DNA of 34,111 nt from a virus. The stretch is from IMG/VR virus record IMGVR_UViG_3300047478_000032, positions 1-34,111 of that record, one strand, 5' to 3'. Within the stretch, counting starts at the first letter, position 1. The number at the start of each line of letters is the position of its first letter. The notes under the pieces were generated by a model. That model was not told where the DNA came from. It searched no databases and worked only from the letters and a program-made list of their open reading frames with translations. Positions 4,152-17,792 of this stretch are shown piece after piece. Position numbers and translations under genes: made by a program.

Positions 4152-4159
4152 TAACTTTG
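4152..4159 (+). promoter_or_regulatory. -7 element TAACTTTG immediately before the protease gene
   Basis: TAACTTTG ends 4 bases before the ATG at 4164. This is the same spacing as at 13103 and 33119, and would place the transcript start at or next to the start codon, giving a leaderless mRNA. Upstream there is TTA rather than TTG at 4131-4133 with an 18-base spacer, so the -33 box is imperfect. Confidence 0.5.
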
Positions 4160-4163
4160 TTTT

Positions 4164-4910
4164 ATGAGTAAAATTGAGCAAAAGGGTTATGACGAAATGA
4201 TATTAGACATAACTCCAGAAACAAGAACAGTTAAAGCGTGTTGGTCTCGTTTAGGTAACGTAGATTTAGATGGCGATATTATCGTTGCCGAAGCGTTTAC
4301 AAAAACAATTAAAGAGCGTGGACCAGAGGGCAAGAATATGATTTGGTCTTTAGTAGACCATAAAGCCGATATGGCACATACTTTAGGTAAGCCTAAAGAA
4401 TTGTATATTGAAGGTGATATGCTTGTTGCAGTTACTGACTTAATTGAAACAGAGTGCGGCGAAGATGCAATCAAATTGTATGAAGCTGGTTTAATCAATC
4501 AACACTCAATTGGCTTTACTACATTGAAAAGTACAGTAGACCAAAAGTCTGGTGTAAGGACAATTACTGAATTGAAGTTATATGAAGGCTCTGCAGTATT
4601 ATGGGGTGCTAACCCAGAAACTCCAACTTTAGGATTTAAAGGTGAATTTAAGGAGAATAAAGAAGCATTATCTTTGCGTTTAGAAAACTTAATTAAGGCA
4701 TTTAGAGGTGGCACTTTTACAGATGACACTTTTGCTTTAATGGAGATTCAGATAAAACAAATACAAGCTGCATTATTAGAACTTGAAGTTGTGGAGACTA
4801 TCACTCAACCCGCACCAGCAGTTGAGCCGACTGAAACAATCGTAGAGGAGAAAAGTAATGAAGATGTATTAAAAGCAATCAAACATTTTAACAATCTATT
4901 TAAAAAGTAA
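4164..4910 (+). CDS. HK97-family prohead maturation protease (U35/S78)
   Basis: This serine protease cleaves the capsid delta domain and itself during head maturation. The 248-residue protein has the expected catalytic elements: His66 in LVDHKADM, Ser115 in NQHSIGFTT, and the strand LYEGSAVLWGANPETPT (139-155) typical of the herpesvirus-protease-like fold. Residues from about 165 to the end are helical and acidic and lie outside the protease core; such tails often act as scaffold or targeting segments. It sits directly before the major capsid gene with 3 bases between stop and start, as usual for HK97-like heads. A TAACTTTG element abuts its start. Confidence 0.9.
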   Translation: MSKIEQKGYDEMILDITPETRTVKACWSRLGNVDLDGDIIVAEAFTKTIKERGPEGKNMIWSLVDHKADMAHTLGKPKELYIEGDMLVAVTDLIETECGEDAIKLYEAGLINQHSIGFTTLKSTVDQKSGVRTITELKLYEGSAVLWGANPETPTLGFKGEFKENKEALSLRLENLIKAFRGGTFTDDTFALMEIQIKQIQAALLELEVVETITQPAPAVEPTETIVEEKSNEDVLKAIKHFNNLFKK

Positions 4911-6962: not shown

Positions 6963-7534
6963 TGGCATTTGGAATGGACTTATCTGGCATCCCAAGACTT
7001 GAAAAAAAGTTAGAACAAATTAAAAACAATGTAAGTACAGAGTTGGCTAAAGAAATATCTGCATCTACATTAAGAATAGAAAAGGCTGCCAAGCGTCTTG
7101 CACCAGTTAATATGGGTACATTACGCCAAAGCATACACGCTACATCAAAAAATAAATTAACTCATTACGTTGAAGTTGGTGCATCTTATGGTGCTTATGT
7201 AGAGTTTGGTACTGGAGGCAAGGTTTCTATTCCAGCTGGGTACGAAGACTATGCTGCAACATTTAGAGGTAGTAAAGGTGGAAGTTTGGATGATATGATA
7301 AAGGCATTAACTTTGTGGGTTAAAAGAAAAGGGTTAGCTGGAACATATAGCCCAACTACTGGTAGAAGACAAGGTGGGAGTAAACTAAAAACATCACAAG
7401 ATGAGAAATTAGCAAGGTTCTTAGCTATTAAAATACTTAGAAATGGCATTAGACCGCAACCTTTTCTTATACCAGCATATGAAGCCGAAAAGCCAAAATT
7501 GATAGAAAAAATAAAAAAGATATTAAATGCTTAA
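6962..7534 (+). CDS. HK97 gp10-like head-tail joining / tail component
   Basis: Proteins of this family act at the head-tail joint or tail top. The 190-residue protein carries the characteristic AAKRLAPVNMGTLRQSI segment (about 42-58), followed by YGAYVEFGTGG (about 77-87) and, near the C-terminus, PQPFLIPAYEAEKPKL (about 166-181). The middle has a long insert (SKGGSLDDMIKALTLWVKRKG) found in longer members of the family. It overlaps the previous stop by one base and the next gene by 8 bases, so the joining genes form a single tight operon. Confidence 0.85.
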   Translation: MAFGMDLSGIPRLEKKLEQIKNNVSTELAKEISASTLRIEKAAKRLAPVNMGTLRQSIHATSKNKLTHYVEVGASYGAYVEFGTGGKVSIPAGYEDYAATFRGSKGGSLDDMIKALTLWVKRKGLAGTYSPTTGRRQGGSKLKTSQDEKLARFLAIKILRNGIRPQPFLIPAYEAEKPKLIEKIKKILNA

Positions 7535-7934
7535 CCCTAATATAGAAATAAAGAAATGGTTTTATACCAACTTGACAAGTGCAAGTGGATTGACTGTTTA
7601 TGATGGTATTGCACCAGATGGTGCTGGGGAAGAATATATTGTAATGACTGGTCGTACATCAACTCAAGAACAAGGAAAATCTGGTTATACTAATGGCGTA
7701 ACTATTGATGTTGACATTGTTACAAAAAATGCTAACTTTGGCTATAAACGTGCTGAAACGATTAGCAATTTGATTTTAACGGCTATCAATTCAGATACTA
7801 ATATAACATTGGCGAACGGCTTTTATAGTTCTACTTTGTTTGTAGCAAGTATCAGAAACTTAGACGGAATAAACCCTTTGGATAACGTATTTAGAACGAT
7901 TATAACATATAATATAACAATAACTCAAAATTAA
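7527..7934 (+). CDS. Tail completion / terminator protein (DUF3168-like)
   Basis: This is probably the protein that caps the head-proximal end of the tail tube before head joining. It has 135 residues. The pattern WFYTNLTSASGLTVYDGIAP (about 11-30), then EEYIVMTGRT, an alternating beta region and AETISNLILTAI resembles DUF3168/tail completion proteins. Its position between the gp10-like protein and the tail tube gene supports this. Recognition rests mostly on order and general pattern, so confidence is moderate. Confidence 0.65.
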   Translation: MLNPNIEIKKWFYTNLTSASGLTVYDGIAPDGAGEEYIVMTGRTSTQEQGKSGYTNGVTIDVDIVTKNANFGYKRAETISNLILTAINSDTNITLANGFYSSTLFVASIRNLDGINPLDNVFRTIITYNITITQN

Positions 7935-7939
7935 ATAAA

Positions 7940-8383
7940 ATGGCAGAAACTAAAGTATCAGCAAGAGATTACATCCTACTTGCAGACATAGATGGTAACG
8001 CAACTTACAAACCAGTAGCTTGTCTTACATCTAACTCATTCACATCAACTCTTAACACAATTGATGCAACTTCTAAATGTGGAGACCAATTTCAACCTGG
8101 TCCATCTTTTACTCAATCTTTCACTTGTGAAGGTTTTGCAATTGACGAAACTGGAAGCCCAGCTAAAGATAGCTATCAACAATTATATACTGCTCACGCT
8201 GCTGGTACAGTATTTGGTATGAAGATGGGTAAAGCAAGTCCAGCTACTGGAGATATTACTTACACTGGTTCTGTTTGGATTTCTACATTTGATGTAAACG
8301 CAGATGATAAAGATGACGTTAAGTTTTCTGCAACATTTGTAGTATATGCACCACCAGTAACACAAACTGAACAAGGAGCTTAA
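7940..8383 (+). CDS. Major tail (tube) protein
   Basis: This is the likely tube subunit that polymerises around the tape measure. The 147-residue, beta-rich protein resembles TP901-1-type tail tube proteins. It has a central PVACLTSNSFTSTLNT (about 26-41) and a TFDVNADDKDDVKFSATFVV end (about 117-136), where tube proteins have their last strands. It lies just before the G/GT tail chaperones, the normal place. The proteins at 12695 and the N-terminus of 13115 share a weaker version of the same pattern (xxACxxNxF ... CEG), suggesting three tube-like modules in this phage. Confidence 0.8.
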   Translation: MAETKVSARDYILLADIDGNATYKPVACLTSNSFTSTLNTIDATSKCGDQFQPGPSFTQSFTCEGFAIDETGSPAKDSYQQLYTAHAAGTVFGMKMGKASPATGDITYTGSVWISTFDVNADDKDDVKFSATFVVYAPPVTQTEQGA

Positions 8384-8399
8384 TCAATAAAAACCAACT

Positions 8400-8756
8400 A
8401 TGCATAAATTTGAAACAAACAACAAAACAATAGATTTAAAATGGGGTACTTGGGCAATGAGAGAGTTCTGTAAGGACAAAGGCGTAACCATAGACCAATA
8501 TTTTGAATTAATCGGAGGAAAAATATTAGACATTGATACTGTTATTAAGTTAATTTATGCTGGTTATAAATCAGCTTGTAACAGTAATAAAGAGCCAGTT
8601 GAATACACTGAAAATGATGTATGCGATTGGATAGATGAAATAGGAGGTATATTTAACACTGATGGTCAAGTAATGGAGTATTTTAAATACATTATTACAA
8701 ACACTGTTATAGCGGTAAGTGGAACTCCTAAAGAAGAAAAAAAAAAGTCTAATTAA
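8400..8756 (+). CDS. Tail assembly chaperone, G-type (upstream part of G/GT)
   Basis: This 118-residue protein lies between the tail tube and tape measure genes, the place of the lambda G/T-type tail chaperones, which coat the tape measure during assembly. It is mostly helical (WAMREFCKDKG, the VIKLIYAGYKSA segment) and resembles phage tail assembly chaperones. Its last codons are in a run of ten A (8737-8746) and it stops at 8754-8756. A second frame continues across this run to 9069 and encodes the T-type part, so a minority of product is expected to be a fused GT protein. Confidence 0.78.
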   Translation: MHKFETNNKTIDLKWGTWAMREFCKDKGVTIDQYFELIGGKILDIDTVIKLIYAGYKSACNSNKEPVEYTENDVCDWIDEIGGIFNTDGQVMEYFKYIITNTVIAVSGTPKEEKKKSN

Positions 8757-9069
8757 GTTAAGCTGGGATGATATTTTAGTTAAGGCTGCTGAATGTAATA
8801 TACGCCCAAGCGAGTTTTGGGAGATGACTTGGAAAGACTTTTCTATAATTGTTATGGGAAAGGAAAAACAAGAATTAAACGAATGGGCGAGGACACGAAA
8901 CCTCGCCTATATTGTATATTTAAGTAGCACTTCCGAAAAGTCGCCTAAAACACTTAAAGCGTTTTGGCACATACCAGAGATTGACGACAATGAACCAGCA
9001 GAGGAAAAGGTTATGCTAACAAACGAACAGTTAGCAAGGACTTTAAAAATGTACGGAGTTAAAAAATAA
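8719..9069 (+). CDS. Tail assembly chaperone, T-type part, expressed by frameshift from the G gene
   Basis: The downstream frame is open from 8719 (a GTG) to 9069. No ATG exists near its beginning, so it is best read as the C-terminal half of a GT fusion entered at the A10 run, from about SLIKLSWDDIL onward. The segment NIRPSEFWEMTWKDFS closely matches the W-x-M-T pattern of T-type tail assembly chaperones. Relative to the G frame it lies in the +1 (equivalently -2) frame. The -1 frame ends at once in TAA (8750-8752). It ends 2 bases before the tape measure gene. Confidence 0.72.
   Translation: MELLKKKKKSLIKLSWDDILVKAAECNIRPSEFWEMTWKDFSIIVMGKEKQELNEWARTRNLAYIVYLSSTSEKSPKTLKAFWHIPEIDDNEPAEEKVMLTNEQLARTLKMYGVKK
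8737..8746 (+). other. A10 slippery run for the G/GT frameshift
   Basis: Ten consecutive A sit at the end of the G-type gene where the G and T frames overlap. Moving from the G frame to the T frame requires +1 or -2. That could come from ribosome slippage on AAA codons, or from RNA polymerase slippage making transcripts one A shorter or two A longer. A sequencing error in the homopolymer would also give this appearance. Confidence 0.6.
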
Positions 9070-9071
9070 AG

Positions 9072-10802
9072 ATGGCACAAGAAACATTAAAACTCACTAT
9101 AACTGCTGATACCCAAGAAGCGTTAGACAATCTGAATAACTTTATTAAGGCATCTAAAGGTCTTAAAACAGAGATGCAGAACTTTGGTAAGGTAGGGAAT
9201 CAAGCAACACAAGCGTTATCTAACTTATCAAGAGTTGCACAAGATGCTCCGTATGGGTTTATGGGTATTGCCAATAACATTAACCCTTTACTTGAATCAT
9301 TCCAAAGACTACAAAAAGAATCTGGTGGTAGTTCACAAGCGTTAAAGGCAATGGCTGGTGCTTTAACTGGTCCAGCTGGTATAGGTCTTGCAATTGGTGT
9401 TGCAACATCATTAATAGTTGCATTTGGTGATGAGATAAGTGATTTTTTTGATAAAGTAACTGGTGGCTCACAAATATTAAAAGAAACAAATAACGCATTT
9501 AGTGCGTCAAAAAAGGCATTTGCTGATGCGTATGTAGAAGTCGAGAATTTAAATAATGCATTTGATAAATTTAGAAATGGAACTCTATCAAAGAAAGATG
9601 CATTAGACCAATATAACAATAGTTTAGGTAAGGTTTACGGTACAACAAAAGATATAGCCGAAGCAGAGAAGGTATTTATAGATAATAAGGAAAGTTATGT
9701 AAAAGCTGCATTGTATAGAGCGGCATCACAAATTGCATTACAAAAAGCAGCAGAACAAGCATTTAAACAATTAGAGGCACAAAACGCACCACAAAATGCT
9801 AACAAGGCATCTTTATTTATGGGCGAAGGTTTAGGTGCATTTGCTTTATCTAAATTAACTGGTGCTCCAGCTATTACTGGTACGGACGTTTTAGGAGCAG
9901 AGGCAATAGGTAAAAAAGCTGCAACCTTAGAAGAAGTATTTAAGGGTATATCTAAGCAGTTTAATGAATTAGCAAATGAGCAAGATAAATATGCTACTCG
10001 TACAAAAAACTTTAACGCTGATACAAATAAATCATTTGATGATTTTTCAGCTAATCTAAGAAAAGAAAACAACCTTTTATTAGAGGCAATTAGAATAAGA
10101 AAAGAATTAGGTAAAAATAAAAATATATTAACTGTTGGTAGTGAAGAAGAAAAGAGACAAAGAGCATTTAATGTTAAAGAAGCAGAAAGACAACAAGGCA
10201 GTACAGAAAGTGGATTAGGTAAGTTTTTAGCAGACCAAGCAAAAGGATTTGCAGAAGTTGCTTATGGTGCAGATAGTGCAAGAGAATCAATAGAAGCATT
10301 TAATCAAAAAAGTTTAGAAACTGCTGACGTATTATCAAACTATGCTACTAATGCTATTATGGGATTATGGTCATCTATGGAACAAGGGATGAGTCTTGGT
10401 CAAGCCATTGGTCAAATGTTTATGGATTTAGCAAAGCAAATTGCCGCTGCTGCAATTAAAGCTGCTTTATTCCAAGCTATATTATCAGCAATACCGGGTA
10501 TCGGTGGTGCTGCTGGTGCAACTAAACTAACTGGAGGATTTGGGTCTATGTTTAAAGGGCTTTTAGGTCTTGCATCTGGTGGTATTGTAACTGGTCCAAC
10601 TTTAGCTATGGTTGGTGAAGGTAACGAAAGTGAAGCGGTTATGCCTTTAAGTAAATTAGGAAACTTAATGAACAATACATTTAACGCTGGTGCAGTATCT
10701 GGAAATGGCGGTGGAGGTAACGGTGAGTTTGTATTAAGAGGCACAGACTTAGTTTTAGCAATGAATAGAAGTGAAACATCTTTAAAATATAGACGAGGAT
10801 AA
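9072..10802 (+). CDS. Tape measure protein
   Basis: This protein sets tail length and is ejected ahead of the DNA. It has 576 residues. The N-terminal part is helical, followed by hydrophobic glycine/alanine segments (about 95-119, and about 455-485). Long charged helices (about 140-420) follow, and a C-terminal motif LASGGIVTGPTLAMVGEGNE (about 501-520) is very common near the end of phage tape measures. At this length it is short for a siphovirus; by the usual proportionality the tail should be roughly 80-90 nm. It follows the chaperones and ends sharing one base with the next ATG. Confidence 0.9.
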   Translation: MAQETLKLTITADTQEALDNLNNFIKASKGLKTEMQNFGKVGNQATQALSNLSRVAQDAPYGFMGIANNINPLLESFQRLQKESGGSSQALKAMAGALTGPAGIGLAIGVATSLIVAFGDEISDFFDKVTGGSQILKETNNAFSASKKAFADAYVEVENLNNAFDKFRNGTLSKKDALDQYNNSLGKVYGTTKDIAEAEKVFIDNKESYVKAALYRAASQIALQKAAEQAFKQLEAQNAPQNANKASLFMGEGLGAFALSKLTGAPAITGTDVLGAEAIGKKAATLEEVFKGISKQFNELANEQDKYATRTKNFNADTNKSFDDFSANLRKENNLLLEAIRIRKELGKNKNILTVGSEEEKRQRAFNVKEAERQQGSTESGLGKFLADQAKGFAEVAYGADSARESIEAFNQKSLETADVLSNYATNAIMGLWSSMEQGMSLGQAIGQMFMDLAKQIAAAAIKAALFQAILSAIPGIGGAAGATKLTGGFGSMFKGLLGLASGGIVTGPTLAMVGEGNESEAVMPLSKLGNLMNNTFNAGAVSGNGGGGNGEFVLRGTDLVLAMNRSETSLKYRRG

Positions 10803-12688
10803 TGGCATACTACGATAAATATAAAATTACCTATGCTACAAAGACAAGTAAAACTGCTTACTTGTATTTACAAGAAGATTTACCATCTGCACCTACTTTA
10901 ATTGAATTTATTGGAGTAAATATATCTCTACAATACATCCCAAGCGGTGATGAGATATATGAGGCAATGTATGCAAGTGAATTGTCTTGTACAATTGACG
11001 TAACTGATAACTTAGCCAATATACCAGACTTTGTTACTTTAAACGATAGAAAATACTTTGCTAAATTATATTTAGGCACTGATTTAGAATGGACTGGTTA
11101 TACATTAAGCGACAATATATCAATAGGCTATTCAACTGGGAGAAAGCAATTATCTTTTACTTGTGTAGACGGCTTAGGAATGTTAAGGAATATACCTTTA
11201 AATATCAGCAGTGTAGGCAACAGAACAAATACTCCTTTAACTGTACTTAGTTATATTTTAACTTGTTTAAACTCGTTAAACTTCCCTACTACTCCTAACT
11301 TAATGACATCTTGTTCATATTATTCAGTTGGTATGAACGATAGAGAAGATGGCTACCAATATGAGCCATTTAGTCAAACTTACCTTCCGTTAAGAACTTT
11401 TAAGAACGAAGATTATACATACGAGTCAAGCTATGATGTATTAGAAAAAATTGTAAAATCTTTTGGATGTAGATTGTTCCAAGCTGGTGGCAAATGGTGG
11501 ATAGTAGCTATTAATGAGTTTGCAAATGAAAACAACTATTTTACTCAATATAACTATTTAGGCACAGTAGTTTCAAGTGGAAATAATTTAAATACATTAA
11601 GTTCAATACAAGGATACACTGGAAATACAAGCGGTTTATATTTTATAAATAACGAGCAGTTTAAGTTAATATTAAAAGGATTTAATAGAGTAGAAACAAG
11701 TAAACAAATTGACTACTCAAAGAATTTAGTAGACAATGGCAATTTAAAAATATATCCTAACCTTAGTTCTGCTCCACAATCTTGGACAGTAATTAACGTT
11801 GGTTCTGGTTCATCTTTTTATTTAGTAGATAATGCAACTGATTCATATGCTCAATTAACAATGGTTAGGGCTGCTGGTGGTGGCTATACAAGAATGGTCA
11901 ATAACTTTATGCCTAAGATTAGTTCTTATGGAGTTGTAAAATTTTCTATGTTATTTTTAAATGGTGGCGGTGGTACAAGGGGTTATGTATCTATGACAAT
12001 ATTTGACGGCACTACAACATATTATTTAAATAATAGTAAAGATTGGCAAAGTAGTGTAAGTTCTGGTTATATTATTCCAGAGGGAGACGATGGAGTATTT
12101 GATTTAACAACATTGCCTTGCCCAGTTGGAGGACAATTGACAATAGAGTTCAATAATCAAGTAGGTAACACTTGTACAGTAACTAACTTTACTACAACAG
12201 TAGATTATACTTATTACGCTATAGATTACTTTGCTTATATAAACAATAACAAAGAGTATGTAAAAGAAGTAGATATTCCTTTTGGTTATCAAGGTATAGC
12301 TGGTTTCCCTACATCTGTTGGAGTATTCTTAAACGCAAGTAGTGCTCCTTTATTAAACTGGTACAGATTTGGCAAAGAAGGGGCTTATGATAGTATGACT
12401 CAATTACTTATGAGACAATACATAAACTCATATGGTAACAACGTAATTAATATAGATTGTTCTGTTAGTAGTTTTGAAACTGCAAACGCAAACTACCCTT
12501 ACTTGAATGCATCAAAAATGATTAAATCATACGATACAGACCCAGCACAAATAAATGTTTCTAATAACTCATATATGTTAGGTAACTCATCTATTGATTA
12601 TGCTGCAAACTCAATGAGTGGTACTTTATTAGAAATTAGCAATACAGACATAACTGCAACTATAAATTATATAAATTATTTTAAATAA
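10802..12688 (+). CDS. Tail tip / baseplate hub-like protein
   Basis: This 628-residue protein follows the tape measure, the normal place for distal tail and hub proteins. The first part (1 to about 135) is beta-rich, like a distal tail protein. A middle section contains SSYDVLEKIVKSFGCRLFQ and GGKWWIVAINEF (about 205-245), a pattern I associate with hub-like tail proteins of Bacteroidota phages. From about 300 to 480 a jelly-roll-like region (APQSWTVINVGSGSSFYL, then FSMLFLNGGGG) resembles carbohydrate-binding modules and could contact the host surface. The exact role (Dit, Tal or a fusion) cannot be decided from sequence alone. Confidence 0.65.
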   Translation: MAYYDKYKITYATKTSKTAYLYLQEDLPSAPTLIEFIGVNISLQYIPSGDEIYEAMYASELSCTIDVTDNLANIPDFVTLNDRKYFAKLYLGTDLEWTGYTLSDNISIGYSTGRKQLSFTCVDGLGMLRNIPLNISSVGNRTNTPLTVLSYILTCLNSLNFPTTPNLMTSCSYYSVGMNDREDGYQYEPFSQTYLPLRTFKNEDYTYESSYDVLEKIVKSFGCRLFQAGGKWWIVAINEFANENNYFTQYNYLGTVVSSGNNLNTLSSIQGYTGNTSGLYFINNEQFKLILKGFNRVETSKQIDYSKNLVDNGNLKIYPNLSSAPQSWTVINVGSGSSFYLVDNATDSYAQLTMVRAAGGGYTRMVNNFMPKISSYGVVKFSMLFLNGGGGTRGYVSMTIFDGTTTYYLNNSKDWQSSVSSGYIIPEGDDGVFDLTTLPCPVGGQLTIEFNNQVGNTCTVTNFTTTVDYTYYAIDYFAYINNNKEYVKEVDIPFGYQGIAGFPTSVGVFLNASSAPLLNWYRFGKEGAYDSMTQLLMRQYINSYGNNVINIDCSVSSFETANANYPYLNASKMIKSYDTDPAQINVSNNSYMLGNSSIDYAANSMSGTLLEISNTDITATINYINYFK

Positions 12689-12694
12689 TAGACA

Positions 12695-13102
12695 ATGGCT
12701 GATAAAGTACAAGGGAAAAACATAATCCTATATAAAACCGCTGGTGGAGTAGATACAGTCTTTGCTTGTTCTACTAATTGTACGTTTAGCGTAACGGTAG
12801 ACCAAGTAGATGTAACAAGTCAGTCCTCTGCATGGTTTGCGGAATATAAAATAGACAGAGCATCATGGACTGTTAGTTGTGAGGGTATTGTAACTCTTGA
12901 CGGTTATTCTTATGCTGATATGTTAGCCACTCAATTGGCTCGAACTCCAATAAATGTTAAGTTTAGCATTAACAATGGGTCAAGTTTTGTAATATTATCT
13001 GGTTCAGCTATTTTAACTTCTTTATCTATAAACGCACCATATAAAGAGATTGCTACTTATAGCGTAAACCTACAAGGAGTTGGTGCATATACAATATCTT
13101 AG
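12695..13102 (+). CDS. Tail-tube-like protein (second paralogue)
   Basis: This 135-residue beta-rich protein resembles phage major tail proteins of the TP901-1 type: TVFACSTNCTFSVTVDQVDV, then WTVSCEGIVTLDGYSYADM, and a closing YKEIATYSVNLQGVGAYT. It is clearly related to the N-terminal 138 residues of the next gene (shared VxGxNxILYK, VFAC, CTF, GIVTLDxxSYxD) and more distantly to the tail tube at 7940. A second tube-like gene after the tail tip is unusual. It might form a tip extension or a decoration ring. Its last 23 bases contain the -33 box and most of the spacer of the next promoter. Confidence 0.6.
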   Translation: MADKVQGKNIILYKTAGGVDTVFACSTNCTFSVTVDQVDVTSQSSAWFAEYKIDRASWTVSCEGIVTLDGYSYADMLATQLARTPINVKFSINNGSSFVILSGSAILTSLSINAPYKEIATYSVNLQGVGAYTIS

Positions 13103-13110
13103 TAACTTTG
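13080..13110 (+). promoter_or_regulatory. Strong Bacteroidota-type promoter for the adhesin and glycosyltransferase genes
   Basis: TTG (13080-13082), a 20-base spacer and TAACTTTG (13103-13110) give a full match to the Bacteroidota consensus. The ATG at 13115 is only 4 bases beyond the -7 element, so the transcript would be leaderless or nearly so. It would allow the Thr/Ser-rich protein and probably the three glycosyltransferases to be expressed separately from the upstream tail operon. Confidence 0.75.
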
Positions 13111-13114
13111 ACCT

Positions 13115-15016
13115 ATGGCAGTTAAAGTAAGCGGAGATAATGTTATCTTATATAAAATAGATACATCTACAATTCCAGCAACGGAGACTGTGTTTGCTTG
13201 TGCAAGGGGATGTACATTTGAAAGCCAAACAGATATATCAGAAACTACATCAGCAGTAAACGCTTGGTTTAAAGAAGATAAAGAGAATTTATCAGCATGG
13301 ACTATGTCATTAGATGGGATAGTTACATTAGATAATTTTTCATATGAGGATATTGCCCAAGCACAAAAAGATAGATTATTGCTTTTAACAAGATTTAGGT
13401 TTGATAATGGCATAGATGGTTATAGATACATTAGCGGTTATTGTTTTATAGGTGGTTATTCCATAAGCGGTGATTATAAGGACATAGGCAGTTATAATGT
13501 TACATTAACGGGAAGTGGAAAGTATTATACAGACGCAACTCCTACAACGACAAGTACTACAACGAGTACGACATCAACATCAACCTCAACTACAACAAGT
13601 ACAACGTCTACCTCTACGAGTACATCTACAACGACCTCTACGACTACGACAAGTACAACTACATCAACGACTACAACACAAGCCCCAGTATATTACAAAT
13701 TATTTAATTGTGCTACTGGTGCTACTGAATATTCAAGAGGATATATTAGCGGCTCATTTGCGGTAAATGACCGAGTTACTGCTATTGGGCAAACATTTAG
13801 AATTGACCAAGTATTAATATCAGACCCAGGCGGTTTGGCATTGTCATTAACGGCAACTGGGCTTACTGGGTGTCCAGCTACAACATCAACGACCACTACT
13901 TTGCCTCCATTAACATTAAGTTTAACAGTGCTTTGTAATAACGTTGGAACATATCAAGGAAAGGTGGTAGCGACATGGTCTGGTGGTAGCGGAAGCGGTT
14001 ATCAAATTAGAGCGGGTTATGGCTTCGCTTCTCTTAGTACTTATAGGTCAATGGGTATTACACAAACATTAACATTAACAAGTGATACTAACCCTTATGA
14101 TGGTACAAGTGGATTAAGAAATACAACTGGAGGTAGTGATGTATTTGTAGTTCAAGTAATAGACAATAACGGAGCTGGAGCATTTAATTCAACAACACAG
14201 ATTACTGCTATTGCTTGTGCTGGTACAACTACTACAACATCTACGAGTACAACAACAATGCCTCAAGTGTGGTATTTACTTTATAATTGTGCTACTGGAG
14301 CGACTACTACATCTACTAACTATGTAGATAATACATTTCAATTAAATGATAGAGTTACCTCAATAGGTAATACTTATAGAATAGACCAAGTTTATTATAG
14401 CAATCCAGGTGGAACACAATTACCAATTACTGCAACTGGTTTGACTGGATGTCCAGCGACTACAACAACTTCTACGACATTAGCACCAGTAAACTTTGAT
14501 ATTAGTTCTGTTTGTGATGGTATATATCAAGATGTTACTATTAATAATTTTACTGGAGGTAACGGAAGCTATCAAGCAAACACTACTACATATGATACGC
14601 CATCTGCTGCTATTGGCGGCTTATTTACTCCAGTGAGTGGTAGTAGATTATTTGATAACCAACCTGGTACAACTAACAGATATGTGGCAGTAAAAGATAG
14701 TGCTGGATTTGGTTTAGTTATTAAATTTGTAAATGCTAACTGTACTACTACTACAACTACAACAACAACATCTACAACAACAACTGCCGCTCCTCCAGCT
14801 TGTTCTTGTTGGACAGTAGTTAATGAAACAAGTTCGACTGGTAACTATACATATGATAGATGTGGTGCTGGTTCTACAACAAGAAGTATCCCAGCGTTTG
14901 TAACTCAAACAATATGCGTAACAGAAGGTACAACTCCTACTGCTAATACAGTTGGATTAACAATTTATCCTTGTGGAACTGCTTGTACTGTAAATTCAGA
15001 CTGTACGCCATGTTAA
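13115..15016 (+). CDS. Thr/Ser-rich tail-associated adhesin-like protein with a tail-tube-like N-terminus
   Basis: This 633-residue protein is modular. Residues 1-138 resemble the tail-tube-like protein of the preceding gene and probably anchor it in the virion. Residues 144-188 are 45 consecutive Thr or Ser. Two related domains (192-255 and 385-448; shared NCATGAT, NDRVT, YRIDQ/FRIDQ, TATGLTGCPATT) alternate with two Ig-like domains (about 265-370 and 459-543), separated by shorter Thr/Ser linkers (256-262, 371-381, 449-455, 544-557). The C-terminus (562-633) is cysteine-rich with eight Cys. The linkers look like mucin-type sites for O-glycosylation, and three glycosyltransferase genes follow directly. 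The function is inferred to be host-surface or matrix binding. It has its own strong promoter. Confidence 0.65.
   Translation: MAVKVSGDNVILYKIDTSTIPATETVFACARGCTFESQTDISETTSAVNAWFKEDKENLSAWTMSLDGIVTLDNFSYEDIAQAQKDRLLLLTRFRFDNGIDGYRYISGYCFIGGYSISGDYKDIGSYNVTLTGSGKYYTDATPTTTSTTTSTTSTSTSTTTSTTSTSTSTSTTTSTTTTSTTTSTTTTQAPVYYKLFNCATGATEYSRGYISGSFAVNDRVTAIGQTFRIDQVLISDPGGLALSLTATGLTGCPATTSTTTTLPPLTLSLTVLCNNVGTYQGKVVATWSGGSGSGYQIRAGYGFASLSTYRSMGITQTLTLTSDTNPYDGTSGLRNTTGGSDVFVVQVIDNNGAGAFNSTTQITAIACAGTTTTTSTSTTTMPQVWYLLYNCATGATTTSTNYVDNTFQLNDRVTSIGNTYRIDQVYYSNPGGTQLPITATGLTGCPATTTTSTTLAPVNFDISSVCDGIYQDVTINNFTGGNGSYQANTTTYDTPSAAIGGLFTPVSGSRLFDNQPGTTNRYVAVKDSAGFGLVIKFVNANCTTTTTTTTTSTTTTAAPPACSCWTVVNETSSTGNYTYDRCGAGSTTRSIPAFVTQTICVTEGTTPTANTVGLTIYPCGTACTVNSDCTPC
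13544..13678 (+). repeat. Low-complexity ACN/TCN/AGT codon tract encoding 45 Thr/Ser
   Basis: Every codon in this stretch is Thr or Ser. The codons vary freely (ACA, ACG, ACT, ACC, TCA, TCT, TCC, AGT), so selection acts on the amino acid content, not on a DNA repeat unit. Shorter tracts of the same kind occur at four other points in the gene. Confidence 0.9.
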
Positions 15017-15025
15017 AACCTAAAT

Positions 15026-15952
15026 ATGAAAATACGATTAATTTGTGCTCAACCAGCTACGCTATTTTATGCATGGCAAGTTGAAGTCATGCTCCAAAAC
15101 TTTATTAGTGTAGGAATAAACATTAATAACGTAGACATAGTTTGTAATATTGAAAGCAGTGTTCCAGAGGAATGGTCTAAACTTGCCAATGGTTATGCTG
15201 CAAGATTCTTTTTTTACTATGATAAAAGAGAAACTAAACACTATGTTTCATCTATACGACCTAACATTTTAAAGCAACACTTTGAGGCATACCCAGAACT
15301 TAAAGATGAAGCTATATTTTACCATGATTGCGACATAGTATTCACTAAGCCAATTGAATGGTACAAGTTTGTATTTGATAATAAATGGTATGGTTCAGAT
15401 ACAAGATTTTATATTAGCCATGATTACATAGTAAGTAAAGGCGAAGATATACTCGACAAGATGTGTGAGATAGTCAATATAGACAAGCAAGTAATTAAAG
15501 ATAATGAGTTAAACTGCATAGGAGCACAATATTTAATGAAAGGCATAGATGCAGAATTTTGGAATAACGTAGAAAAGGACAGTGAAAGGTTATTTAAGGA
15601 AATAACAGACATAAACATAGAAAAAAGATTAGCTAACCCATCCTATCACGAGTTACAAATATGGTGTGCTGATATGTGGGCTGTACTTTGGAACGGCTGG
15701 AAGTTAGGATATGAAACAGTAGTACATGATGATTTAAAGTTTGCATGGGCTACAAGCAATCAAAAGACATGGGATGAGTGCTATATTTACCATAATGCTG
15801 GAGCCGTAAATAATACAAGTGGAATATTTTATAAATCAGACTATAACCAAAGATTGCCCTATGATGACGATTTAGAGATAAAAGAAGATACTGCCTCATA
15901 TAATTACTGGAAACTAATTAAAAATACTGCTAAAAACACAGTTTTAAAATAA
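15026..15952 (+). CDS. Putative GT-A fold glycosyltransferase
   Basis: This 308-residue protein has an acidic DxD-type motif in IFYHDCDIVFTKPIEWY (97-113; D101 and D103), the nucleotide-sugar/metal site of GT-A glycosyltransferases, after an N-terminal Rossmann-like half. The D-x-D-x-x-F-x-x-P context is reminiscent of protein O-glycosyltransferases such as the hydroxyproline/serine types, but that resemblance is weak and I cannot name a family. No signal peptide or membrane segment is visible, so it should be cytoplasmic. It starts 9 bases after the Thr/Ser-rich gene and shares one base with the next glycosyltransferase. A likely substrate is that neighbour's Thr/Ser linkers; a host surface glycan is the alternative. 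Confidence 0.68.
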   Translation: MKIRLICAQPATLFYAWQVEVMLQNFISVGININNVDIVCNIESSVPEEWSKLANGYAARFFFYYDKRETKHYVSSIRPNILKQHFEAYPELKDEAIFYHDCDIVFTKPIEWYKFVFDNKWYGSDTRFYISHDYIVSKGEDILDKMCEIVNIDKQVIKDNELNCIGAQYLMKGIDAEFWNNVEKDSERLFKEITDINIEKRLANPSYHELQIWCADMWAVLWNGWKLGYETVVHDDLKFAWATSNQKTWDECYIYHNAGAVNNTSGIFYKSDYNQRLPYDDDLEIKEDTASYNYWKLIKNTAKNTVLK

Positions 15953-16596
15953 TGGAAAAAATAATACATCAAATCTGGGTAGGTCCATATGAAATGCCCG
16001 ATAGAGAAAAACGCTTTATAGATAAAGTAAAAGAAAAGAATAAAACCTATAAGCACATTTTATGGACTAATGATAACTTGCCAGAGTTACCAGAAAACAT
16101 CAAGGAGTTATACGATAAGTTTGAATTAGCCGAAGACTACGCACATCAAGCAGATATATTAAGGATATTTTTAATAGCTGAATATGGTGGTATTTATATG
16201 GATGTAGACTTTGATTGTGTAGGTAGCATAGACAATACCGATTTAAGCGAATCTAAGGGCTTTTTTTGCTATCATGGGGGAAATGATTATACAATGCCCA
16301 ACGGAGTATTTGGGCTCTGTAAATCGTCTGATATGGCTAATTTCTTATTAGAAAGCGTAAACCCAAATAACGGATGGTATGGTCCAAGCTGGTTAGGTGA
16401 TAGGGTTAAAGAATTTATAGGCTATGAAAGGGAGGTAAGCCATGAAATAGTTAAAAGTGGATTAGCAGATATTGGGATAAAGTATATATTGTTCCCACAT
16501 TGGGAAGTGAAATATTTTAAACATCATGCCTTGTACTCTTGGAGTCCAGAGAACAAAGCCAATTTCAAAAACGGAAACATCAACTATTTATGGTAA
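15952..16596 (+). CDS. GT32-type glycosyltransferase (OCH1-like, DxD)
   Basis: This 214-residue protein matches the glycosyltransferase sugar-binding DxD family (PF04488). It begins MEKIIHQIWVGPYEMP, the usual IPKIIHQIW start. It continues with YAHQADILRIFLIAEYGGIY (63-82), then MDVDFDC, with D84 and D86 as the DxD metal/nucleotide-sugar site. Such enzymes transfer hexoses in capsule or protein glycan synthesis. The length is on the short side but includes the core. It is cytoplasmic, with no signal. It overlaps its upstream neighbour by one base and the next glycosyltransferase by 7 bases, so the three are surely co-translated. Confidence 0.85.
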   Translation: MEKIIHQIWVGPYEMPDREKRFIDKVKEKNKTYKHILWTNDNLPELPENIKELYDKFELAEDYAHQADILRIFLIAEYGGIYMDVDFDCVGSIDNTDLSESKGFFCYHGGNDYTMPNGVFGLCKSSDMANFLLESVNPNNGWYGPSWLGDRVKEFIGYEREVSHEIVKSGLADIGIKYILFPHWEVKYFKHHALYSWSPENKANFKNGNINYLW

Positions 16597-17378
16597 GTTT
16601 TATTTGCACTACATATAGAAGGTTTTATTGTGTTAGAAGAATTTTAGCCCAATTTTACGCCCAGACATATCCTCACAAAGAATTAATCATATTTAATACT
16701 GATATGGAGTTTCCGTATGAAATGCTGGTTAATGTTTCTAATGTTATCATAGTAAATAACGACAAAGACTATCAGACTGGGTTGCCTTATAAAAACAGAG
16801 GGCAAATTTGTAGGGATGCAGTAAGCCACGCATCTGGTGAGTATTTTATGTTAGCAGATGATGACGATATATATATGCCTTATCATATTGAACAAGCGGT
16901 TAATGGGATAAAAGAAAATGGCAAAGATGCATGGAAGCCAGAAAAGAGTTTATTTGCTACAAGAGAAGAATTAAAGTTAGTGCAAAACACGCTTGAGGCA
17001 AGTGTAATAGTTAAAATGAATAGAATAAAAGAGATTGGTTTTAGGTCAGACATTACTGGGTACGAGGGATTAAGCTGGTACACTCAATTAAGAGATGAAG
17101 GCGAACTTGACGAGAATAATGTATTTTATGTACCATCCTATTGTTTTAACTGGAGCGACCCAACGGAAGTAGCTGGACATAAGCAAAGCGGAGACATAGA
17201 CAATCCAGATAACTTTGATAATCATAAAGAGCAAAGCAAGGACATAGCAAAAGAAAAATTAACGCCAATTACTCAACAAGAGTTAGATATTGAATACTCA
17301 AAGTATTATGAGTTTATAAATAACCATAAAGACGAATTTGATGCTAAAAGTTACGAAAGGTATATTTTGCGTAACTAA
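16590..17378 (+). CDS. GT2-family glycosyltransferase
   Basis: I chose ATG 16590, inside the end of the GT32 gene (ATGGTAA), because the family core begins there: MVSFICTTYRRFYCVRRILA. The frame is open further upstream to 16539, but those residues are only a shadow of the GT32 gene. The resulting 262-residue enzyme has the GT2 nucleotide-binding start, a KNRGQICRDAVSHASGEYFM segment (69-87) and DDDD (90-93) as the DxD site. The C-terminal third is less conserved and charged. It would extend or begin a glycan using a nucleotide sugar from the host. It closes the cassette behind the Thr/Ser-rich tail protein. Confidence 0.82.
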   Translation: MVSFICTTYRRFYCVRRILAQFYAQTYPHKELIIFNTDMEFPYEMLVNVSNVIIVNNDKDYQTGLPYKNRGQICRDAVSHASGEYFMLADDDDIYMPYHIEQAVNGIKENGKDAWKPEKSLFATREELKLVQNTLEASVIVKMNRIKEIGFRSDITGYEGLSWYTQLRDEGELDENNVFYVPSYCFNWSDPTEVAGHKQSGDIDNPDNFDNHKEQSKDIAKEKLTPITQQELDIEYSKYYEFINNHKDEFDAKSYERYILRN

Positions 17379-17401
17379 GCCTTTAATTGTTTAAAATTGA
17401 G

Positions 17402-17409
17402 TAATTTTG
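17402..17409 (+). promoter_or_regulatory. -7 element TAATTTTG before the BppU-like gene
   Basis: TAATTTTG fits TAnnTTTG and lies in the 48-base gap after the glycosyltransferases, 17 bases before the ATG at 17427. The closest TTG upstream (17387-17389) leaves only 12 bases, so the -33 element is missing or unusual. Confidence 0.4.
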
Positions 17410-17426
17410 ACTAAATACTCTATAAT

Positions 17427-17792
17427 ATGGCTTGTAATAATAGTGCTGATTTAAGACCAGCGACCTACAATATTCAAATCTGGAAAGATGATAACTGGGC
17501 TCAAACATTTGCTTTATTTGCTAATGATGTGCCTATTGACTTAAGTGGTGCTTATGCTGAAATCCAAATAAGACCAAGCATTAAATCTACAACTGTTTCT
17601 GCAACTTTAGATAGTGATGGGAACGGCATTTCAATAGGTGGGGTAAATGATAACCTTATTACAGTAGACTATCCTATTACAATTGCGGCTGGTAATTATG
17701 TTTACGACTTAACAGTAGTATTCCCAAGCGACTTTACAAAGACATATATTTGGGGAACATTCGTAGTTTATCAAGATATAACACAAATCTAA
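17427..17792 (+). CDS. BppU-like N-terminal domain protein (baseplate or fibre adaptor)
   Basis: This 121-residue, beta-rich protein resembles a very common small phage tail protein: WAQTFALFANDVPIDLSGAY (25-44), then AEIQIRPS, a central NGISIGG, and NYVYDLTVVFPS before a final strand, WGTFVVYQDITQ. The fold is probably the same as the N-terminal domain of baseplate upper proteins, which attach fibres to the tail. It directly precedes the large fibre gene and shares one base with its ATG, supporting a role as fibre adaptor. Confidence 0.6.
   Translation: MACNNSADLRPATYNIQIWKDDNWAQTFALFANDVPIDLSGAYAEIQIRPSIKSTTVSATLDSDGNGISIGGVNDNLITVDYPITIAAGNYVYDLTVVFPSDFTKTYIWGTFVVYQDITQI

Follow-up and report, generated by a model that had tools for sequence, protein, structure and literature searches.

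Glycosylation of phage virions has, to our knowledge, been demonstrated mainly in mycobacteriophages. For Che8 (gp108–110), Corndog and Myrna (Freeman et al. 2023, doi 10.1016/j.chom.2023.05.028, as cited in PMC12619734), glycans are reported at the C-termini of capsid and tail-tube subunits, and a second citing paper (PMC12363180) discusses the glycosylation enzymes of Che8. The proteins gp108–110 are, in order, GT2–methyltransferase, GT2-like and GT25-like. Outside the phages, the serine-rich repeat adhesins of streptococci are cellular proteins exported by a dedicated secretion system. Here, we describe a locus in a 34,111-base virus record (IMG/VR record IMGVR_UViG_3300047478_000032; the whole of it is referred to as the window), in which a tail protein carrying long Thr/Ser runs (hereafter, the acceptor) is followed directly by three glycosyltransferase (GT) genes, the first of which belongs to the protein family PHROG 4417. 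We consider it quite probable that this locus is a self-contained module for virion O-glycosylation, in which the PHROG 4417 enzyme would start on the Thr runs and variable enzymes would extend or cap the product.

As in the mycobacteriophages, the phage encodes three GT genes that overlap; by sequence, the Thr tails of PHROG 4417 phages also lie at those capsid and tail-tube C-termini at which glycans are reported in mycobacteriophages. In addition, the Che8 set includes a methyltransferase domain, and methyltransferases also occur in the enzyme blocks of the window's relatives; the third GT of the window weakly matches PHROG 14775, a family covering the GT2 domain of Che8 gp108 (compared records L396 and L395). 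There are also differences: the major capsid protein (MCP) and major tail protein (MTP) of Che8 are without Thr tails, its GT genes are remote from those for the structural proteins, and the PHROG 4417 profile has no detectable relation to gp108–110 (E 0.17 or worse). By analogy, the two appear to be the same kind of phenomenon, with different enzymes, acceptor signal and hosts. In streptococcal serine-rich adhesin loci (PsrP with GlyE), a Ser/Thr-rich acceptor gene likewise adjoins a variable series of GT genes, and GlyE is among the folds closest to PHROG 4417; here, however, the acceptor belongs to the tail or capsid of a phage and is assembled in the cytoplasm. When solved structures were searched by profile, PHROG 4417 showed no sequence relation to the adhesin GTs, and general scans of the window proteins, none of them aimed at export genes, turned up no SecA2/SecY2. 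We found no literature in which virion glycosylation is connected with genes of the PHROG 4417 type or with poly-Thr tails, in a search that left subscription papers outside, so that priority elsewhere is possible.

The layout of the acceptor, as given by its translation and an alignment of twenty relatives, is tube domain–T45–domain A–T7–domain B–T11–domain A–T7–domain B–T14–C-terminal domain, with T denoting Thr/Ser runs (Table 1). An earlier sequence-only reading of this DNA had counted 45 consecutive Thr/Ser residues and four shorter linkers, exactly as they stand in the 633-residue translation; its adhesin-like domains have to be revised, as the N-terminal ~140 residues are a tail-tube domain instead, by profile and by comparison with tube structures. 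The match to PF06199 (E 6.3e-5) is 0.3 bits below the Pfam cut-off, and Foldseek returned the tube structures of monocin MttP, 80alpha, SPP1 and lambda gpV at a probability of 1.00, for a part of the model that has low confidence. Because of this N-terminal domain, we take the acceptor to be a virion protein. Its structure model (predicted local distance difference test [pLDDT] 63; predicted template modelling score [pTM] 0.24) comprises ordered domains and disordered runs, with the 45-residue run below pLDDT 50, and because confidence is low, the C-terminal domains are termed beta-sandwich or immunoglobulin-like only loosely.

Seven different codons for Thr or Ser, mixed in their order, code for the 45-residue run, which thus is not a DNA microsatellite; for the same reason, slippage of a DNA repeat is ruled out as its maintainer. 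Across thirty-three relatives at 52–100% identity (the tube domain diverging to 52%), the long run measures 24–56 residues. The Thr/Ser runs are kept as protein, not as DNA repeat. The run of the window seemed to be enriched in ACG codons, but this was not upheld in the relatives (p 0.25) and was dropped. Against the Pfam Mucin family (PF01456), the acceptor scores 16.3 bits, with a curated cut-off of 34.7, and is therefore mucin-like by composition only.

The gene behind the acceptor (15026–15952) almost certainly encodes a glycosyltransferase, a name that we apply because of its modelled GT-A fold and its invariant DxD motif and C-terminal His. Residues 4–301 of its product match positions 2–291 of the 293 in the profile of PHROG 4417 (annotated ‘unknown function’), which also matches cultured-phage relatives of the enzyme; the Pfam scan returned nothing at E ≤ 1, GT8 included. 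AlphaFold2, run with thirty-four relatives, yielded a model of pLDDT 96.9 and pTM 0.93, for which the top Foldseek matches listed were GT-A enzymes exclusively. In the VIA-align ranking, glycogenin leads with Z 15.1 (226 residues aligned at 3.4 Å); LgtC scores 14.0 and GlyE 13.0. Sequence profiles searched against solved structures had given chance matches to ElxO only (E 0.9), and a fold search was needed. Alignments spanning the window phage to phages of Gram-positive bacteria show no variation at D101, D103 or H256; metal-dependent retaining GT-A enzymes employ a DxD motif and a C-terminal His. The GT8 enzymes glycogenin and LgtC, with UDP (uridine diphosphate)-glucose and UDP-galactose as donors, share these residues and are the best structural matches, but at a sequence identity of 6–12% the resemblance is structural only. 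GlyE modifies a serine-rich pneumococcal adhesin. The family extends beyond phages: Bacteroidota chromosomal homologues (L338–L352, L364; such locus labels denote records compared with the window) of 530–590 amino acids (aa) form one separate clade (support 100/97) and adjoin LanC-like and HlyD genes, which suggests peptide-modifying loci akin to those for ribosomally synthesized and post-translationally modified peptides. PHROG 4417 also occurs fused with a radical SAM/SPASM domain (L192:294–2291) and with a methyltransferase (L092:1–1117).

The evidence for the role of this enzyme includes the company that it keeps. PHROG 4417 is found in seventy-four phage records, chiefly from Lactobacillus, Enterococcus, Staphylococcus and Lactococcus, all less than 60% identical to the window enzyme. 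Thr tails are present on the MTP of phiFL1A, TPWB06, RQ1 and bIL285 and on the MCP of phiFL1A, 4995_1, R3.3 (probable capsid) and iLp84 (orf8); LpeD has one on orf68. The major tail protein of phiFL1A, for instance, ends in ...GTTTTTSTTTTTTSSTTTTTTTQASSK and its capsid-block protein in ...TTTTTKPTTTTTKPTTTTTTTQG; the capsid C-terminus of 4995_1 is ...TTTTTTKPTTTTTTTQA; the probable capsid protein of R3.3 ends in ...TTTTTTKAPTTTTTSSHA and its tail protein in ...TTTTTTSHA; orf13 of phage 1706 ends in ...TTTTTTTTTTHHD and orf50 of bIL285 in ...TTTTTTTTTRHD. A Thr tail on a virion protein or an adjacent protein, in most cases the MCP or the MTP, was found in 13/13 cultured PHROG 4417 phages vs 0/13 phages that have homologues of these proteins but lack the enzyme (p 1.9e-7). 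Under a strict criterion (14/20 residues Thr/Ser), the counts are 11/13 and 0/13, because the tails of 1706 and bIL285 are short. Bacillota prophages (L353–L363) display the same pattern, nine of the eleven above the strict cut and two just below it.

In some of these phages, the Thr-rich stretch lies out of frame. Past the MCP stop codon of the Enterococcus phages Planchet (L332:3680–3960) and VPE25 (L335:3660–3960), a Thr-rich −1 frame follows, with the canonical slippery sequence C CCA AAA in Planchet; judged by sequence, this looks like a Thr tail added by frameshifting to a fraction of the capsid subunits. In TPWB06 (L393:2220–2426) and RQ1 (L394:2126–2437), the poly-Thr end of the MTP is continued by a small overlapping open reading frame (ORF) in another frame, and PT1-4 (L333:2956–3207) has a similar stranded Thr-rich frame. 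Listeria phage PSA is comparable in that its MCP and MTP are annotated with C-terminal extensions made by ribosomal slippage; in contrast, its extension is not Thr-rich, and the stretch read contains no PHROG 4417 gene.

The association extends to uncultivated viruses. With the window's PHROG 4417 enzyme as query, eighty IMG/VR loci were found. In close relatives (L002–L036, except L015 and L035), the gene order is conserved: tape measure, then tail tip, second tail-tube paralogue (MTP2), third such paralogue with its Thr/Ser run (MTP3) and PHROG 4417; in distant loci (L062–L081), PHROG 4417 stands behind quite different Thr/Ser-rich proteins. By the strict criterion, applied to frames within 1.6 kb, a Thr/Ser-rich frame lies upstream of PHROG 4417 in fifty of seventy-seven IMG/VR loci and in all nine of the cultured phages checked first; downstream the count is zero, and in random windows it is 4/351. 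The twenty-seven exceptions are mostly one clade. The sequence-only reading had held that its proposal would be refuted if the same GTs were routinely found in relatives without any Thr/Ser-rich protein. This is not the pattern seen: among non-adjacent loci, poly-Thr occurs elsewhere in all six large records searched, vs 1/40 random virus records.

Used as a query, the N-terminal domain of the acceptor matched eight close IMG/VR loci only and two records of Geobacillus phages. Because this number would not carry a reverse test, a scan of DNA for poly-Thr took its place. A search of IMG/VR for thirteen Thr codons in a row, blind to the enzyme, gave 119 new loci, and 120 loci picked by an arbitrary 14-mer served as the control. 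PHROG 4417 was present in 11 of the poly-Thr loci and in none of the control loci (Fisher 3.7e-4). It was the immediate same-strand neighbour of the poly-Thr ORF downstream in 9/45 cases and upstream in 0/55, and other GT2 enzymes were the downstream neighbour in four more cases; no GT family matched among the upstream neighbours, and none was among the best twenty-five of the fifty-three families matched by one hundred random ORFs. The mixed codons, the control with random loci and the one-sidedness of the neighbours rule out chance or a low-complexity artefact.

The second and third enzymes behave differently from the first. Profiles, fold and coordinates bear out the description of the genes in the sequence-only reading as three overlapping GT genes (a DCD-bearing GT-A type, a GT32 type and a GT2 type); the overlaps are 1 and 7 nucleotides (nt). 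The third most likely starts at ATG 16590 (MVSFICTTYRR...), not at TTG 16539 where its ORF opens, because relatives (L062 was compared) begin there; its match to PF00535 has an E of 3.8e-8 to 4.5e-8. Among seventy-four loci, the block bounded by PHROG 4417 and the 17427 gene contains a protein that we call GT290 (thirty-six loci), a methyltransferase with GT290 (23), GT32 with GT2 (4), GT2 (4), GT290 with GT2 (4) or no enzyme (3). Most Bacteroidota-type phages encode GT290, a protein of ~290 aa bearing the motif LEHDV, behind PHROG 4417 (e.g. L005:8921–9793); it gave no match in Pfam and PHROG scans and is probably a new glycosyltransferase family. Profile matches of the small methyltransferase-like gene are weak. 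The GT32-like and GT2 pair of the window is found together in few relatives only. The suggestion that an acceptor and a three-step enzyme set travel together consequently needs division: the first GT is a constant partner beyond this phage, but GT32 and GT2 are swapped in most relatives, so that the ‘three-step set’ is true of this lineage only. Provided that the later enzymes act on the same glycan, the pattern would be one in which the first step stays constant and the outer step can be exchanged.

We propose that the acceptor would be anchored in the tail by its tail-tube-type domain, with the beta-sandwich domains projecting on Thr/Ser linkers. The PHROG 4417 enzyme, as a soluble metal-dependent GT-A enzyme, would place a first sugar on Thr (and Ser) residues of the runs, with transfer to Thr hydroxyls occurring in the cytoplasm of the host, either ahead of tail assembly or in its course; the GT32-like enzyme (second step) and the GT2 enzyme (later step) would then extend or cap this sugar. 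In related phages, where the later enzymes are exchanged or joined by a methyltransferase, the outer sugar would vary and the first step would be kept. A dense row of sugars could render the runs extended, stiff and protease-resistant and alter the recognition or adhesion of the particle. What the data show directly is the anatomy of the locus, the fold and motif of the first GT, and the association of its gene with Thr-tailed virion proteins in phages that infect different hosts; transfer to Thr, the order of the steps, the nature of the sugar and the biological benefit are all what we infer. That the PHROG 4417 enzyme coats virus particles with sugar is very probable, because it keeps company with Thr-tailed capsid and tail proteins across unrelated cultured phages.

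Several observations count against this proposal. Many IMG/VR loci are near relatives, and 50/77 does not represent seventy-seven independent events; the GT-negative MTP and MCP homologues, which gave 0/13, are a hand-picked sample of which ~4 kb each was inspected; and the 6/6 count of poly-Thr elsewhere in the record covers records larger than 50 kb. In the clade L037–L061, PHROG 4417 stands apart from any Thr-rich gene, and in bIL285 it lies behind a Thr-less capsid gene, with the Thr tail five genes further. In 36/45 cases the downstream neighbour of a poly-Thr ORF is not PHROG 4417, so Thr runs are not always paired with it. No poly-Thr was found near the chromosomal Bacteroidota homologues, and the Thr-tail association thus belongs to the phage branches. 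Were the runs plain flexible linkers, and the neighbourhood due to shared ancestry or chance, these unpaired ORFs would be expected, and low-complexity linkers are indeed common in fibre proteins; yet the association reappears, on one side only, in the enzyme-blind scan and spans unrelated acceptors (MCP, MTP and fibres) and host phyla, which makes this explanation extremely unlikely.

It is also improbable, to a lesser degree, that the enzymes modify a host surface glycan (lipopolysaccharide, capsule or teichoic acid) for phage exclusion or receptor change, with the position beside a Thr-rich gene incidental. Phage GTs often act in this manner, as in O-antigen-converting phages, and matches to GT32/Gly_transf_sug and Caps_synth are of a kind usual for enzymes of polysaccharide synthesis. 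However, PHROG 4417 sits inside the late structural block in phages of Gram-positive bacteria and Bacteroidota alike, hosts with quite different surface glycans; no GtrA/GtrB-type Pfam match appears among the neighbours (7527–17792); and such a role does not predict the observed agreement between PHROG 4417 presence and Thr tails among homologues of the capsid and tail proteins. A division of labour, with PHROG 4417 glycosylating Thr tails and the GT32-like and GT2 enzymes acting on a host glycan or another phage molecule from a tolerant insertion spot, is less easily set aside, although we regard it as unlikely. It would account for the cultured phages of Gram-positive bacteria in which no second GT is obvious next to PHROG 4417 and for the high exchangeability of the block; against it, in 71/74 IMG/VR loci PHROG 4417 is directly followed by one or more other modifying enzymes, methyltransferases and GTs are also fused to or placed behind it, and the short start/stop overlaps in the window suggest coupled translation.

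Table 1. Features of the window, in order of position (aa, amino acids; GT, glycosyltransferase; MTP2, second tail-tube paralogue).
Feature	Coordinates	Strand	Evidence or remark
Terminase	541		Window gene
Portal	1887		Window gene
Capsid	4914		Window gene
Tail tube	7940–8383		First of three tail-tube copies in the window
Tape measure	9072		Window gene
Tail-tip candidate	10802		Window gene, upstream of acceptor and GT block
Tail-tube paralogue MTP2, 135 aa	12695–13102	+	PHROG 1407 E 2.8e-20; Phage_tail_2 E 6.9e-13; same site in relatives, directly before acceptor
Bacteroidota-type promoter-like TTG-N20-TAACTTTG	13080–13110	+	Sequence pattern; predicted
Acceptor, 633 aa: tail-tube domain, then beta-sandwich domains on Thr/Ser linkers	13115–15016	+	Profile matches, domain alignment, structure model
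Tail-tube (major tail protein) domain, aa 1–140	13115–13534	+	PHROG 1407 E 1.8e-12; Foldseek tube matches
45-residue Thr/Ser run, aa 144–188	13544–13678	+	Translation
Thr/Ser linker 2, 7 residues, aa 256–262	13880–13900	+	Translation
Thr/Ser linker 3, 11 residues, aa 371–381	14225–14257	+	Translation
Thr/Ser linker 4, 7 residues, aa 449–455	14459–14479	+	Translation
Thr/Ser linker 5, 14 residues, aa 544–557	14744–14785	+	Translation
PHROG 4417 glycosyltransferase, GT-A fold; DCD aa 101–103, HN aa 256–257	15026–15952	+	Profile E 1.4e-68; AlphaFold2; invariant residues
GT32-like glycosyltransferase	15952–16596	+	PF04488 (Gly_transf_sug) E 2.8e-15; replaced by other enzymes in relatives
GT2-family glycosyltransferase, 262 aa from ATG 16590	16590–17378	+	PF00535 (Glycos_transf_2); PHROG 14775 E 8.8e-5
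PHROG 1084 flanking gene, end of exchangeable enzyme block	17427–17792	+	PHROG 1084 E 9.4e-14; same site in relatives
Two fibre-like proteins with S74 chaperone domains at their ends	17750 and 22647		3′ of GT block

The window has a siphophage-type gene order. Three tail-tube paralogues (7940–8383, 12695–13102 and 13115–13534) are present in this one small phage, two of them 3′ of the tail-tip gene. The host is probably a member of the Bacteroidota, because of the TANNTTTG boxes (the Bacteroidota −7 box) and of the relatives, which include a Chitinophagaceae contig (L337) and a Chryseobacterium phage. The box occurs forty-five times on the coding (+) strand and thirteen times on the other (−). 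The strong promoter named in the sequence-only reading corresponds to the promoter-like element before the acceptor (Table 1), which ends just 4 nt 5′ of its ATG, and a TANNTTTG box lies within 30 nt of the acceptor ATG in 21/33 relatives. Boxes at 4152, 13103, 31441 and 33119 begin 12–14 nt 5′ of the ATGs at 4164, 13115, 31455 and 33131, so near that almost leaderless 5′ ends are predicted for these genes.

If the proposed module is real, a ‘hypothetical’ family in Lactobacillus, Lactococcus, Enterococcus and Staphylococcus phages would be a virion-modifying enzyme: PHROG 4417 would be given a function, its substrate, a poly-Thr tail, would be readable from sequence, and it could be predicted which of the cultured phages bear glycans, and on what protein. 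Phage adsorption and stability, as well as recognition by the immune system, would become addressable in laboratory phages such as Lactococcus bIL285 and 1706, and the system may supply a short peptide tag glycosylated by a single soluble bacterial enzyme. We give an even chance to a broader proposition, that PHROG 4417 is a general system of Bacillota and Bacteroidota phages in which poly-Thr serves as a portable glyco-tag on capsid, tube or fibre, in which some phages (Planchet, VPE25 and possibly TPWB06, RQ1 and PT1-4) tag a fraction of their subunits by frameshifting and thereby set the sugar dose, and in which exchangeable enzymes vary the outer sugar.

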